NCBI GenBank assembly: GCA_011947345.1
Contig: JAAVTG010000845.1
Location: 682,001-746,000, forward strand
From: Phytophthora quininea
Taxonomy: Eukaryota; Oomycota; Peronosporomycetes; Peronosporales; Peronosporaceae
Reading direction: 5' to 3'
DNA: 64,000 nucleotides
The translations under genes were made by a program, and so were the position numbers. The notes below the pieces were generated by a model. It was given only the letters and a program-made list of their open reading frames with translations. It was not told the DNA's origin and made no database searches. This document shows positions 14,884 through 22,292 of this stretch, piece after piece. Position 1 is the first letter of the stretch. Each line of letters starts with the position of its first letter.

Positions 14884-16876
14884 TCACTCGAGCGCAGGCA
14901 TGTCATCAAACTCCTCTGCCTCTGCCTTCAGCTTCTCCTGCTTCTCCAGTTCTTTGTTCTTGGCCTCCAGACGGTCGAAGATCTTCTCCTTGTACAGCTT
15001 TTCTCGTCCTCTTTATATTTCGCGGCGTATTTGTGGAGAACCCCTAGGCGCATTGACAACAACAAACATCAGCATATAGCAGCACAACAAGGCAGGCAGG
15101 CACATTGAGTAGTAATACAGTACCTGGCTCCGTTTGAGATCTGCCACTGCACGCGTCATCTTGCTATCGTGGGATTCACCCAACAGATCCTGCGCCTTTT
15201 GAAGACTTTTTCAGCCTCAGCAGCATACTCAAAGCCCTTGTCGACGATCCAGAACTCGCCCTTTTTCTCCTTCTCGAGCTCGCCCTTGAGCTTTTCAGTG
15301 AACACGAGGGCTCGACGGAAATGTCCCTTACTGTTTTTGGCATCGATCAGGATAGCCTGGCAGTGCGTGCAAACAACGTCAAGCTACGAACCATCAGCAC
15401 CGAAAACGTTTTAGCTGGAGCAAACCTGATCGCAGTCCCACTCTGCGTCGTCGATCTTCGCCAGTTTGATCTTACACAGCGCTCGATTCAGGTACAACAC
15501 CAGTTTCACTTGGTTAATCTTGTCCTTGTCTTCCTGAGGGAGCACGTTCTCCCACTCATCTTTCGCGTAGAATATGTGTACGAACCCCTGAAAAAGAGAT
15601 GCAAAGTCAAACGTAAATGCGATTCTACAAGTATAATACAACACGCTTCGCTGAGACCCACCGAGTCGTAGCACTTCTGCGCCTGCTCGTAGTCCTTTTT
15701 GGCAATAAACTCATTACCCTTCTCCTTCTGTTCCAACGCACTTGCAATGCGTTCATCTACAGAAACACACAACGTTTAATTCCCCAACAATAGTATGTGC
15801 AGTTGTCAAAATTAGGATCCTACCAACAGTAGGGGAGGGTTTTCTTCCAACATCTTTTGTCCTCCTCGTATTGTTTCTTGCGGGATTCCGCGAGCTCTGC
15901 TTGAGTCGGGAATCGGGGCAGTGGGTCCTGTTCAAGCGAAACCATTAGCCTTCACAATCCTTTACACATCCATACAACGTTCGACAAACCTTGAATCGAA
16001 GCAGTTCGATCTCAAAGTCAAGCGTCTCGTCGGGCTCCACTTTAGGGGCGAAGCCTTCATGGCCATAGCCGTACTCTGGAGCGATAATGAACCGAGCGAT
16101 CTCGCCCACATTCATCGTGGCGACACCGATGTCCCAACCCTTGATGACTTTCTCTACACGATTGCAGGACACAATATGAGAATTCGGCACTGCTGGGGCG
16201 GTAATTCTGCAAAGTGGAACATACCGCGGCCGAGTTGGAACTCAAAAGGGTCGTCCGTGCCGCCCACATGCTTGCCATCGACCATGTCTCGACTGGAAAC
16301 AGCAAAAGGTAAGACACTACCCAGCTACTTTTCTCCCTAAAGAGTCGTACGCACGTCGTGTCGAAGATGGAGCCATCGTCCAGCCTGCCAATGTATTGCA
16401 CTGGAGACACAACAACGCCGTTTAGGACTGTGATTTTCTAGTCACAGAATCGTCAAGCAACGCACCGAATGTCGGACAGCCCTCTTCCAGCTTGTCTTTG
16501 CTGGGCTCGCCCTCTCGAAGGATCTGGAAAGCAATCCGCCACGTTAGACGCCCAACCACCTATCGATCCGTGTCTCCATCCTGCACCTTTTTCAGCACGC
16601 CGCCGTCTGCGCTAGGCGAGATGTCCACGAAGCCTTCCTCGCGACAGAACTTGCTGCTGTCCGGGTCGAAGAATGCCTTGGTTGCTCTGTTGCAGCAATC
16701 GTCAGCTCCGCAGCAGCAAACGTGTTAGTAGGGGCGCGGTCCCACCTGGCGCAGTGCATACACAGCTTCTGAGGGTTTGTGACCAGCCCCACGCCGAAGC
16801 CGCCGCACTCTACGCAGCGCGGCAGGTCCGCCACGCGGGTGTCGGTCTGCAGCTCTTCCTCGGAATCGGACGCCAT
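14884..16876 (-). CDS. FKBP-type peptidyl-prolyl isomerase with TPR repeats and N-terminal zinc ribbon
   Basis: Predicted prolyl isomerase/co-chaperone of the large FKBP class, in which TPR repeats usually bind the C-terminus of Hsp90. The start is ATG 16876 (a GTG upstream is not used). The first exons are clear: 16876-16746, 16686-16587, 16523-16466, 16400-16355, 16292-16225 and 16153-15990. They sum to 189 codons in phase. Residues 17-45 hold two C-x2-C knuckles (CVECGG, CMHCAR). The FKBP fold follows, with VQYIGRLDDGSIFDTT, VIKGWDIGVATMNVGE and the APEYGYG loop, so the main active-site aromatics are kept. TPR helices follow (EKGNEFIAKKDYEQAQKCYD, VLYLNRALCKIKLAKIDDAE). A charged tail ends FDDMPALE at 14884. 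The frame is uncertain near 15850. One A is probably missing near 15212 (GAAAAAG). The last exons (15760-14884) contain at least three short introns that I did not fix to the base. Confidence 0.85.
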
Positions 16877-17241
16877 GTCGAAATGGGCCACTTTTACCCA
16901 AATAGGAAAATGGATACAATTATGTCAACCACATCAACTTTATTTTTAGTGTATGAATCGACCTCGCGGAAGCTTCCCGCATGCAACGATCGGCGCATGT
17001 AAATACACGAGCACGCACTCCATTACCGCGCCATGACAGTGCGATTACGACCGCCAAGCGCTCTCGGTCATTTCTTCCAGCGAAAAACGCCCAACGACAT
17101 GACGGTTTCAGTTGCGGTATTTCACCCAATCAAAAATGATGAAATTGCCGCTTCTCATTCGCTAAAAACCTGTAGTGGAGAACTTCCCGCTCAGTGCGGA
17201 ATCGCATACAAAGCCCGAGAGAGATCCCTCGTCTCCGGCTC
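16877..17241. promoter_or_regulatory. Bidirectional promoter region between FKBP and the F-box/CDK/cyclin gene
   Basis: This 365-bp spacer separates two divergent start codons, so it should carry both promoters. On the plus side TTCTCATTCGCTA (17152-17164) fits the oomycete initiator and lies about 87 bp upstream of the fusion-gene ATG. No strong TATA box is evident. No RNA gene was recognised here. Confidence 0.45.
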
Positions 17242-20224
17242 ATGGACGCTGCTGCGCCGTCCAGAGCCTCCGCCGCCTTCGACTCGGACGCCACGCCGTC
17301 CAAGAAGCGCCGCGCCACCGGCCCCAACGCGCAGCCGGTGCGCTCCGACGCGTCCAAGCGCGAGCGCGGCCTGCCGCTGCTGCTGTCCCCGAGCGTGGGG
17401 AGAACCCCATTCTGGCCGCGCTGGGAGGCACGCCACGCTCTCAAGCAGCCGCCGCCAAAGGCTTCGACGAGCCTGAGCCGCTGGATCTGTCGCAGAACGA
17501 GCTTAAGATGCCCAGTGTAAAGCAAGAGAAGCCCCACCTGAAGCAAGAAGCCGTCAAGCAGGAGATGGTGACGGTGGCAGTTAAACCGGAGCCCGTGAGG
17601 GTTAAATCCGAGCCCCACGTGAAGGACGAGTCCATGACCAACAAGCGGAAGAGGGAGGACGAGAGCGAGAGCAAGAGCAGCGACTACGTGGCCTACGCTC
17701 GGGAGCACATCCACAGCCAGGAGCCGGGCGAGGAGGGCTTCTCCATCGACCCTTCGGAGCGGGCCGTGGAGCACCGCGCCAGCAAGGTGGTGCGGAGAGA
17801 GATCTTGATCGCGTCGCCAGCAGCCAACGACGACGAGGACTGGGAGCAGCACGCGCCCGTGGACGTGCAGGCCGAGGAGGCGGAGGCGACGCTGACGCCG
17901 ACGGAGCACTTTGATCTGCAGCCCATTGACATTATTCTGCACGTGTTTTCGTTCCTGGTGACGGCAAAAGATCTCGGTAGTATGGCGCAGGTCTCCACCA
18001 AGTGGAGGGAGCTCACGAGCAGGAGATCATTGTACAGAGCAGTACCAAGCGTGACCCCTGAAGGCTCCGTCAATTGGATCAACTTTAAGAACCTCGGCAT
18101 CAAGAACAAGGGCACGGAAGGCACGTGCATCAAGTGCTGCCAGAGATCCACCGGCAAGATCTTGGCCATGAAGAAGGCGCGCGTTTTCCCCAAGGTAAGC
18201 GAGATCTTTCGAGTGAATGGGAGTTTTAGATTGAGGCTGGACTAATATCGGTGCGCTGGCTAAAACAGGGAGAAGGAGTGCCGTACTACATGCTGCGAGA
18301 GCTGGCGGTGCTCAAGGGCATCCGACACGAAAATATCGCGTCTCTTGAGCTCATCAGTTTGGCCAAGGACGAGCTCCACGTGTTCTTCCCCTACGTCGAC
18401 AAGACGTTGCATGAAATTATCAACCCCACAGGAGACCCGACTGGCGGTCGAGTCTTGTCGGAGCAAGTGGTGAGTCACTTCATGCAATACGTTGTTGAGT
18501 CTTTCTAAGTGATTTATGATATTTGCAGATCCGGAAATTGCTCCACCAGCTTCTGGATGCGATTGCATATTGCCACCGCCGCGGAGTGTTGCACCGTAAC
18601 CTGAAACCCAAGCACTTGCTGATCAAAACCTCAGATCCAAAGAATCTGAGTGACGCCAAGTTGCAGATATCGGACTTTGCGCTGGTTCGAGCGACTGGAA
18701 TCCCTCGACGCACCTACACCATGGAAGTGGTGACGCTGTGGTATCGTCCGCCCGAGATCCTCATGGGTGTGCGAGGCTACTCCTCTGCTGTGGACATCTG
18801 GTCAGTCGGGTGCATCTTTGCCGAGATGGCCCAAGGCAAGCCCCTCTTCACAGGCATCTCGGAGATCGACCAGCTGTTCCAGATCTTCAGCAAACTCTCG
18901 ACGCCGACGTCCGAAACGTGGCCAGGATTCTCCTCTCTGCCCAATTACCACTTCGAGTTCCCGCACTGGAAACGTCGACCATTGAATCGCCTTTTCCCGA
19001 AAATCTCGGACCTCGGCATCGACTTGTTGACAAAACTGCTCGTGTACAACCCCGACCAGCGTATTACGGCTGAGGATGCTCTTCGTCACCCTTACTTCTC
19101 GGATGAAGCTCCTGCGTTTTCTCCGCTCACCCCCAAAATCCCAATGGACCAAATGTGCTACACCATGAGTCGAGCACGCATTGGGCCCACCCCAGAGCAC
19201 GTCCAACTGTTCCACGCGTATCTGCGTCAGACTGAGCGAGAGTCCTGGAAGGAGATCAAATACTTGAGGTGGGGTCTCACGTGTTCGTCCATGTCTATAG
19301 ACTCCGTTATCTCACTGTTGACATGACATGACTTCAAACAGCCGACAAAAGACGCTTCGACCAGCCCACCGATCGATGCTGGTGGATTGGCTCATCGAAG
19401 GTACGCGATTGTAACGAATAGTGAGGAATGACCGAATTGGAATGAACTGACTGCTTGTAGTGGTGGACGTGTTTGAGATGTGTCTCCGCACGGCTTTCCT
19501 CGCTGTGAACTACACGGACCGCTATCTAGACATTGTCATGGTGAAGAAGACCCAGTTCCAGTTACTCGGCGCGACCTGCTTGCACGTCGCTTCGAAGTGC
19601 GAAGATGTGTCCTATATTGGTGTGGAAGATCTCGCCATGTGCGCCGACAACGTGTATACTTCTGTGGAAGTATTGGAGATGGAAGAGAAACTGTTGAACA
19701 CCCTCAACTTTACGCTTTCGGTGCCCACTGGTGCGTTATGCGTCGTCTCATCCCTGTTGTGTTGATCTAACTGTCTGTTGCTGTGCAGCGCTGGATTTCC
19801 TGAATATTTACGAACGCATGATCCCTCCGATTCAAAAGAAAACGTCGATGTTGGCACATTACTTGCTCGAATTGGCGCTGCAAGAGTACCAGTTTCTCAA
19901 GTACTTGCCGTCCGTGGTGGCAGCCTGCTGTTTGTCCATGGCCATGTACACTTTGGATGGCTTCCCGATGGTGAGTCGACCTTCTAAGGCATGGGTAGAT
20001 GCTGATTCTGATGTTTTTACGTCGTTTGTGGTCAGACGAGAGAACTAGTCGATGCTTGCGAGTACAGTTGGTCAGAGTTGAAGGACTGCATGAGCGAGTT
20101 GGAGACGTTGTACTCGAATTCGCCGTCGAATAATTTGGCGGTGATCAAGAAGCGCTACTCGAAAGCCGAGAGGTGCCAGGTAGCGAACGTGCTACCTCCG
20201 ACGACGTTCAACATGGCGTTTTAA
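17242..20224 (+). CDS. F-box / CDK-like kinase / cyclin fusion protein
   Basis: Seven exons join in phase: 17242-18194, 18269-18469, 18529-19268, 19342-19400, 19461-19730, 19789-19970 and 20036-20224. One G is missing in the GGGG at 17398; with it the total is 865 codons. Order of parts: a basic disordered head; six psi-K-x-E SUMO-type motifs (VKQE, LKQE, VKQE, VKPE, VKSE, VKDE; residues about 92-131); an F-box (DLQPIDIILHVFSFLVTAKD, about 225-265); a CDK-like kinase (about 290-600); and an A/B-type cyclin box (RSMLVDWLIEVVDVFEMCLR) with the second cyclin fold. The kinase keeps the ATP lysine (ILAMKKARV), the T-loop threonine (RTYTMEVVTLWYRPPE) and VDIWSVGCIFAEM. It has HRN instead of HRD, DFA instead of DFG, VPYYMLRELAVLK at the PSTAIRE position, and a degenerate glycine loop. 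Exon 3 alone runs from the kinase C-lobe into the cyclin N-terminal helix (FHAYLRQTERESW), so the fusion is not a splicing artefact. Likely role: a cell-cycle scaffold or SCF adaptor with a constitutively bound pseudokinase-cyclin pair (inference). Confidence 0.9.
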
Positions 20225-20401
20225 TTCTAGTCAGTGTCAGTAGTAGTTGGGTTATGTATTTACTAGAGGTTTGTTCTCTCAGTCCGCGGCGAGTGCAGTC
20301 CTGGTTGACAAGGTGCTGGGCGGCCGACACGAAGAGCTCACAAAGGCAAGAAGAGATGGTAACAAAGAGAGAATGCGCTGTTGACTACAAAATAAGGTGT
20401 C

Positions 20402-21124
20402 CTAGTTGACCTTTTCAACCTCAATGTCATCGCCCTCTCCAGCTTCGACTTGGTTTTCAAGCAAACCAGCGGGCTCTTCTACAGTAACGCCTTTGTTGTT
20501 GTCTTCGTCGATTGACGTTGCCTCCTCAGCACCGACCGGCTCGAAAAGCATTTGGCGCAGCTTCGTTTCAAGGTCCTGCGCGATCTCAGGGTTCTCTTGG
20601 AGGAACACCTTTGCTTTAGCTTTGCCCTGAGCGATGGGTTCTGTAAAGAGATAAGAGGCAGCCATGAGAAGAGGAGCAACAACATCCAATTAGTGAAGCG
20701 AAACTTACCATCGCCTCCAGCCAGACTGTACCAAGCCCCAGAACGCTTCAGCAGACCATGCTGCACTCCCAAGTCAAGCTATGTGATCCATTGCACAAAT
20801 GGTGAGTCCCATGATAACGACCAACAAGCGGTCAATCCTACCAGCTCTGATTGGCGGTCAATGCCGTGACCAAACATCATGTCGAACGTCGCGACCTTGA
20901 AGGGCGAGGCCAACTTGTTCTTGGCCACTTTGACCACCGTCTCGTTGCCCACGACCTGGTCTCCTTCCTTGATGGCCGTTTTGCGCCGAATGTCCAGCCG
21001 CACTGACGCGTAGTAGCGCAACGCCGTGCCGCCGGACGTCACCTCAGGCGAACCGAAGATGATCCCCACCTTCTGCCGGATCTGGTTCAGGAAAATGATG
21101 GTGCAGTTCGACTTGGACAGCGAA

Positions 21125-21168
<44 letters not shown>

Positions 21169-21991
21169 AGCAATCTGCTGGTCTCCCATCTCACCCTCGA
21201 GTTCAGCGCGCGGCACGAGAGCAGCCACACTGTCCAGCACCACCAAGTCCACAGCCCCCGACCGGATCAAAGTGTCTGCAATTTCCAGAGCTTCTTCGCC
21301 TGAGTCCGGCTGGGAAACATACAGCGAGTCGATGTCGACGCCCAGAGCTTTGGCGTAATGGGCGTCAATCGCGTGCTCTGCGTCGATAAAGGCGCATACC
21401 CCACCTTCGGTCTTTTGAGCTTGAGCGATGCAACTCAATGCCAACGTCGTCTTGCCAGAGCTCTCAGGGCCGTAGATCTCCACCACGCGTCTGGCATTAG
21501 TATTGTTAGCTGAGAAGAAGAAGCAATACTCTTTTTTTTGAAGAGTAATGGGCGCACCCTCGTGGGATCCCACCAATGCCCAGAGCCAAGTCCAAAGACA
21601 AAGACCCGGAAGAAATCACCTCCACCTTCTCCGCAATCTTTCTGCAATAAAAAGTATTAGACATAATAAACTATTTCACTAAAGTTGGCTTACGTGGAGC
21701 CCAGTTGCATCACAGCTCCCTTGCCGAAACTACTCTCGATCTGGCGGATGGCCATCATCAGTGCGGCGCTCCGTTCTGTTCGTAGAGCAAAACAGCAAGT
21801 TGCTCAATGCATGTATGGGTACATTTTGTTGAGGGACACGTACCGGAGCCGGACGCACTAGTGACACGCCCGCTCTTGGCGGCCGAGCGCTTGAAGCGCA
21901 CGAGGTTCAGATGCGGCGATGCAGAAGACGCTGCGGCGGCAGGAAGCCGCTGCTGGCCAAGCACCGGAACGCGAGCCACACGACGGAGCAT
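20402..21991 (-). CDS. recA: RecA recombinase, bacterial type, mitochondrially targeted
   Basis: ATP-dependent strand-exchange protein of bacterial type, encoded in the nucleus. Six exons are in phase: 21991-21844, 21775-21694, 21641-21558, 21490-20842, 20778-20709 and 20640-20402 (424 codons, no frame error). Exon 1 encodes an Arg/Ala/Ser-rich presequence with no acidic residue ([18 protein letters not shown]), typical of mitochondrial import. The mature part begins [20 protein letters not shown]. It has the Walker A motif GPESSGKTT, Walker [11 protein letters not shown], the DNA-binding L2 loop region with [19 protein letters not shown], and the RecA-specific KNKLASPFK. The C-terminal tail is strongly acidic, as in bacterial RecA. 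Introns are 51-67 bp. It converges with the fusion gene (178 bp between ends). The origin is most simply endosymbiotic gene transfer; a plastid-type origin is not excluded by eye. Confidence 0.93.
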
Positions 21992-22292
21992 CTTGATTTA
22001 TGCTGCTTTTTACATATGCTGCAGACATTTCGAAGCGACATTATGTTAGCCAGAAAACAACAGCATTCCTGGTGTACAGACAATACCATACTGAGTCGGC
22101 AGGACAACATTCCTGGTGTATTGCTTGGGTAGAACTGCATCGTATGAACATCTCCATCACGGTAAAGAACTCACATGCATGGAGTACTATGAATACACGC
22201 AACAAGGATTAGACTGAACTATCGGCAGAGGAAAACTTGTCGGCAACTTAAAGTCGTTAAGTTCGCACGATATTGGCTCACAGTCGTCGAAG
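21992..22292. promoter_or_regulatory. Divergent spacer between recA and the following gene, with a short direct repeat
   Basis: A 301-bp spacer between two start codons. CATTCCTGGTGTA occurs twice in direct orientation, at 22064-22076 and 22108-22120, 44 bp apart. This spacing would suit a pair of protein-binding sites, but there is no other support. No RNA gene seen. Confidence 0.35.

Follow-up and report, generated by a model that had tools for sequence, protein, structure and literature searches.

An F-box, a predicted pseudo-CDK and a cyclin A-type cyclin encoded by one Phytophthora gene: a candidate SCF substrate receptor

A three-part gene and its described counterparts

Fusions of cyclin-dependent kinases (CDKs) with cyclins are already known in oomycetes. 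Judelson and Ah-Fong (2010) described four Phytophthora infestans CDKs with C-terminal cyclin domains, which were confirmed by reverse-transcription PCR (RT-PCR); in the part of the paper drawn on here, an Asp-to-Asn catalytic change is common to the fusions, relatives are given from other oomycetes, two ciliates and Theileria, and two diatoms are stated to have no such fusions (PMC3019232). Here we describe a gene of Phytophthora quininea, located at positions 17242 to 20224 of the 64,000-nucleotide stretch of contig JAAVTG010000845.1 that was analysed (the window), which is alike in placing a kinase before Cyclin_N and Cyclin_C and in having the same Asp-to-Asn change. What is new is the presence of an F-box, a fuller pseudo-active-site signature and a wider spread. 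The word 'F-box' is absent from the main text of the 2010 paper, and the further active-site changes and the wider spread do not appear in the part of that account used here. An earlier preliminary description of the locus, made from its letters, referred to oomycete kinase surveys with unusual domain fusions, by which this paper was probably meant.

F-box, CDK-like part and cyclin all belong to one protein, the product of one gene. As the preliminary description had held, the parts lie in one spliced frame, with the F-box, Pkinase, Cyclin_N and Cyclin_C matches all above the curated Pfam cut-offs (Table 1), and a confident AlphaFold model of a relative from the brown alga Choristocarpus (P0044; predicted template modelling score 0.89), has the F-box, kinase and cyclin ordered as one body. 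The closest solved chains to the kinase part are CDK3, CDK2 and CDK1, while the cyclin part is closest to cyclin A2 (7.1e-42), with cyclin F next at 3.4e-20. The junction between F-box and kinase lies within exon 1 and that between kinase and cyclin within exon 3, so that no splicing choice joins the parts; exon 3 is indeed open throughout as it crosses from the kinase C-lobe into the N-terminal helix of the cyclin.

These junctions bear on whether two or three adjacent genes have been read as one in gene prediction, an explanation that we regard as highly improbable. It gains something from the ATG at 17242, which does not share the reading frame of the F-box. Against it stand the two junctions within single exons and the recurrence of the same order in named oomycetes, in ciliates and in P0224, a transcriptome open reading frame labelled 'type:complete' which carries all three parts. 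The RT-PCR reported in 2010 for the P. infestans kinase–cyclin fusions, as far as the excerpted account goes, also makes separate transcripts unlikely (PMC3019232). Separate genes were rejected on the grounds of the junctions inside exons and the same order in distant relatives.

Two well known systems resemble this protein in part. Cyclin F, which acts in SCF-cyclin F, also has an F-box ahead of a cyclin fold in one protein, but the gene in the window has a built-in pseudo-CDK between the two and its cyclin is nearest to cyclin A2. In the human SCF-SKP2 system, p27 is handled with CKS1, CDK2 and cyclin A, according to the part of the source consulted (PMC10318019), and there, too, an F-box protein, CDK2 and cyclin A are united for ubiquitylation. 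In that system, however, the components are separate proteins and CDK2 is a working kinase, whereas the present gene encodes one chain with a pseudokinase; the resemblance does not amount to membership. Machine-annotated entries named 'cyclin-dependent kinase with F-box domain' (Achlya hypogyna) and 'Cyclin-F' (UniRef) belong to the same homologous family and have the three domains annotated. We note that the UniRef name, which is attached to many members, is misleading for surveys of cyclin F, as the proteins are cyclin A-like and contain a kinase. No paper on an F-box/kinase/cyclin protein was found in searches of an open-licence library, and the portions seen of PMC2872877 (diatom cell cycle), PMC4818844 (Tetrahymena CYC2) and PMC5795050 do not describe one.

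The kinase active site and its conservation

Each protein search scored only about 8000 candidates, those sharing most words with the query. The alignment of relatives (A1) consists of 60 rows from 120 matches listed of 521, with truncated rows and ordinary CDKs excluded, and also takes in P0096, which is listed under a chytrid. The aligned places are given CDK2 residue numbers and roles that we take to apply to them.

In all 60 rows the catalytic Asp127 of the HRD motif is replaced by Asn and the metal-binding Asn132 of KPxN by His; Gly147 of DFG is likewise Ala and Tyr15 is Glu. On this pattern the kinase domain is predicted to be a pseudokinase, and the working, permanently assembled kinase foreseen in the preliminary description is not borne out. 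The Asp of DFG and the T-loop Thr are retained in 60/60 rows, and the VAIK Lys and helix-C Glu in 59/60 each. HRD is intact in all nine further CDK-like rows from this genome, two of which are apparently copies of one gene. HRN by itself is not unique to this family, since it also occurs in the animal rows P0124 (CDK-like) and P0105 (one of two kinase motifs).

We considered whether the protein might still be an active, permanently assembled CDK–cyclin, with weak or unusual catalysis despite HRN and with an F-box that limits the lifetime of the protein itself. The four retained residues would be consistent with this, as would the occurrence of HRN alone in the two animal rows. The joint replacement of Asp127 and Asn132 in every row, together with the changes at Gly147 and Tyr15, argues the other way, as does the replacement of the VAIK Lys by Arg in most of the ciliate and dinoflagellate proteins described below. 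The authors of the 2010 study, in the part of it used here, also judged such fusions to be probably inactive (PMC3019232). We consider an active enzyme unlikely.

Named Peronosporaceae have predicted proteins which carry all four domains and share about 94% identity with this one across the folded region. A Pfam scan of A1 gave the kinase and Cyclin_N in 60/60 rows and F-box-like in 49/60 at E <= 0.1. The preliminary description had proposed a search for the architecture across stramenopiles; three-part proteins were found by Pfam in many named oomycetes, and several ochrophytes and the thraustochytrid Hondaea are named as members with kinase and cyclin. In the latter the F-box is either based on alignment (Choristocarpus P0044, in which the Pfam match is under the cut-off, Hondaea P0059, Discosporangium and Phaeothamnion) or cut short (Chrysoparadoxa and Tribonema). 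Two sequences that look stramenopile-type, with KPKH and DFA, P0073 (Durusdinium) and P0096 (Batrachochytrium salamandrivorans), may be contaminants of the assemblies concerned.

A second set, from ciliates and dinoflagellates, was obtained with the divergent protein P0121 as query (120 matches listed of 158). Here 115 of the matches listed have HRN, five have no readable motif and none has HRD. Residues were counted in the 110 rows with a near-complete kinase match and the 101 with a long-enough cyclin match. The catalytic Asp is Asn in 110/110 and the Asn of KPxN is kept in 110/110; the VAIK Lys is Arg in 104/110, as opposed to its retention in 59/60 stramenopile-type rows. The glycine-loop columns are gapped in 20–24 of the 110 rows. 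When eight members of this set were scanned, an F-box was found in 8/8 at E <= 0.1 (seven over the curated cut-off) and a cyclin in 7/8. All three parts are matched by Pfam in the ciliates Blepharisma, Tetrahymena malaccensis, Ichthyophthirius (P0250) and Stylonychia, and in a protein of the dinoflagellate Effrenium in which the F-box is slightly under the curated cut-off. In Halteria P0252 the F-box is weak, and none was seen in either Paramecium P0259 or Ichthyophthirius P0242; the Polarella protein P0209 is partial and comprises just an F-box and a kinase.

On the sequences compared, the core common to both groups is an F-box, an HRN kinase and a cyclin in the same order, with the further active-site change separate in each. 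A recent lineage-specific fusion was rejected, as three-part proteins occur in named oomycetes, in ciliates and in the dinoflagellate Effrenium.

Two side observations concern individual proteins. P0195 (Effrenium voratum, 1360 amino acids) has a Vps41-type beta-propeller ahead of the F-box, which is either an extra domain or a gene-model fusion. P0116 (711 amino acids, from an ENA source) is another kind of CDK–cyclin fusion, with HRD, KPQN and DFG intact and no Pfam F-box; to judge from these motifs, it would be a truly permanent, active kinase–cyclin unit of the kind that the preliminary description had envisaged for the window.

Proposed function and origin

In our view, the protein comprises a disordered leader, an F-box, a CDK1/2-type pseudokinase and a cyclin A-type cyclin packed in cis, and its most likely role, on which our own opinion is evenly balanced, is that of a substrate receptor of an SCF (SKP1–cullin–F-box) ubiquitin ligase. 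This reading is drawn from a catalytically impaired CDK in which the cyclin, the T-loop Thr and a good deal of the docking patch persist, and from the F-box directly ahead of it. The F-box would hold SKP1–cullin, while the pseudo-CDK and cyclin would be permanently paired in cis and would form a capture surface from the cyclin docking patch, the T-loop face and perhaps the CKS site. Such a surface could capture cyclin-docking proteins, for example CDK inhibitors or CDK substrates, which would be presented for ubiquitylation without being phosphorylated, presumably in a cell-cycle role. The genome has two matches to SKP1-type genes and one to a CKS gene. Given the missing catalytic residue of the CDK part and the relatives of this design among water moulds, kin of the algae, ciliates and dinoflagellates, the protein appears to be an ancient component of the protein-degradation machinery that seizes substrates, and not a kinase that is always on. 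The conserved F-box offers a role for kinase–cyclin fusions that have been left without a clear job since 2010. If the reading is true, a CDK–cyclin pair has been converted to serve a ubiquitin ligase as its receptor in much of the diversity of eukaryotes, and surveys go astray when they count such genes among the CDKs or as cyclin F.

The cyclin residues concerned with pairing and docking are largely retained in A1, with Lys266 kept in 60/60 rows, Glu295 in 58/60, Trp217 in 55/60 and Gln254 in 48/60. According to the portion of the source used, the RXL site has Trp217 of cyclin A at its heart (PMC6170502).

Several observations weigh against a substrate receptor. The docking patch of A1 is altered at the place of Met210, which is His in 45/60 rows, and at that of Leu253, which is Phe in 33/60. 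In the ciliate and dinoflagellate set Trp217 is kept in just 31/101 rows and Lys266 is replaced by Val in 90/101. A Pfam F-box match is absent at E 0.1 from 11/60 members of A1, some of them cut short, and from Hondaea P0059. The AlphaFold model of P0044 may echo known CDK2–cyclin A complexes. Furthermore, because the VAIK Lys and the Asp of DFG are kept, nucleotide binding or weak activity is conceivable.

The residue pattern behind the receptor reading equally supports a decoy or scaffold, in which the pseudo-CDK/cyclin would titrate CDK inhibitors, CKS or substrates off active CDKs and the F-box would serve mainly for turnover of the protein itself. A possible role of the cyclin domain in regulating stability, suggested in the 2010 account as excerpted (PMC3019232), also fits this explanation. 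The position of the F-box directly ahead of the kinase is, however, kept in distant relatives, which seems to exceed what a mere degradation signal requires, and we find a decoy or scaffold credible but rather doubtful.

The question of one or two origins was addressed with trees; in the second kinase tree and the cyclin tree the labels ciliate, dinoflagellate and stramenopile were assumed for rows without an organism name. In a first tree of the kinase, made from 47 rows after five short ones of the original 52 had been dropped, the fusions fell on one side of a branch with support of 92/84. In a kinase tree of 49 rows the stramenopile-type and ciliate/dinoflagellate groups were not sisters, but forcing them together was not rejected (approximately unbiased test, p-AU 0.313). 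A cyclin tree of 36 rows, including six ordinary cyclins and with long branches meeting, was similarly not decisive for the forced grouping (p-AU 0.262). As far as these sequences go, the trees fail to discriminate between a single origin and two. We tentatively suggest, as a possibility short of being probable, that a single ancestral F-box/pseudo-CDK/cyclin A protein predated the split of stramenopiles and alveolates. Its dedicated role would be that of an SCF receptor to which cyclin-docking proteins bind, so that one chain would do what SCF-SKP2/CDK2/cyclin A does with several. The loss of catalysis would have happened once (HRN), with later losses in each lineage (KPxH and DFA as against VAIK Lys to Arg).

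Gene model and other copies in the genome

The preliminary description had seven exons joining in phase to 865 codons. When the frames were compared in the window, the seven exons with GT-AG introns throughout and the stop codon at 20224 held, but the phase and the length did not. The exon lengths from 17242 total 2594 nucleotides and are not in phase, the frame of the ATG at 17242 closes upstream of the F-box, and the first ATG in the frame of the F-box, at 17508, gives 775 codons.

Table 1. Positions in the window of the exons, domains and altered active-site residues.
Feature	Position	Strand	Basis or remark
Exon 1	17242..18194	+	Splice and frame comparison
Leader section of exon 1, its reading frame broken with respect to that of the F-box	17242..17507	+	Frame comparison; relative P0002
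Remainder of exon 1 from first in-frame ATG: F-box and beginning of kinase N-lobe	17508..18194	+	
F-box, residues 139-178 counted from ATG 17508	17922..18041	+	PF12937 (F-box-like) 6.6e-11; PF00646 3.1e-4
CDK-like predicted pseudokinase, residues 201-486, exons 1-3 (introns 1 and 2 between)	18108..19098	+	PF00069 1.5e-52
Place of CDK2 Tyr15: Glu	18117..18119	+	60/60 in A1
Exon 2	18269..18469	+	
Exon 3: kinase C-lobe continuing without intron into cyclin N-terminal helices	18529..19268	+	
Place of catalytic Asp of HRD (CDK2 Asp127): Asn; HRN at 18592-18600	18598..18600	+	60/60 in A1
Place of Asn of KPxN (CDK2 Asn132): His	18613..18615	+	60/60 in A1
Place of Gly of DFG (CDK2 Gly147): Ala	18679..18681	+	60/60 in A1
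Cyclin_N, residues 526-649, exons 3-5	19216..19720	+	PF00134 1.7e-34
Exon 4	19342..19400	+	
Exon 5	19461..19730	+	
Cyclin_C, residues 651-766, exons 5-7	19724..20194	+	PF02984 3.1e-25
Exon 6	19789..19970	+	
Exon 7, including stop codon	20036..20224	+	

The leader of the relative P0002, compared by eye, resembles first one frame of exon 1 and then the other, which indicates a frame break in the disordered leader of this exon. Residues 1-262 of P0002 have a predicted local distance difference test score (pLDDT) below 50, consistent with disorder of the leader in relatives, and intact copies are present among them. An assembly error is a plausible cause of the break, since in contig C452 of the same genome a single base is missing from a different exon; C452 does not extend to the region of the break. 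Indels in coding sequence of the assembly are thereby seen in exon 1 of the window (17242-17507) and in an exon of C452.

Contig C452 is colinear with the gene in the window at 97.8% identity over 3.1 kb. The introns differ at 26 of 389 bases, six of these being deleted bases, whereas 1716 exon bases show 15 substitutions besides the one deleted base (Fisher p 1.7e-10, 26 against 15). By codon, ten of the exon substitutions are silent and five are non-silent. We infer that C452 carries the other allele of the gene. The exact degenerate DNA pattern for HRNLKPKHL, which variants would escape, fits only the window and C452, and with P0028 as a query for paralogues these were again the top two matches in the genome. 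A fragment of about 100 residues at C543:867322-867600, which is 58-60% identical to the C-lobe region of the pseudokinase, is a possible remote paralogue.

Both neighbours of the gene in the window lie on the minus strand and were assigned by eye. The divergent upstream neighbour (15500-16880) appears to be an FKBP-type peptidyl-prolyl isomerase gene, and the adjoining open frames at 20400-22000 appear to encode a RecA-type recombinase.
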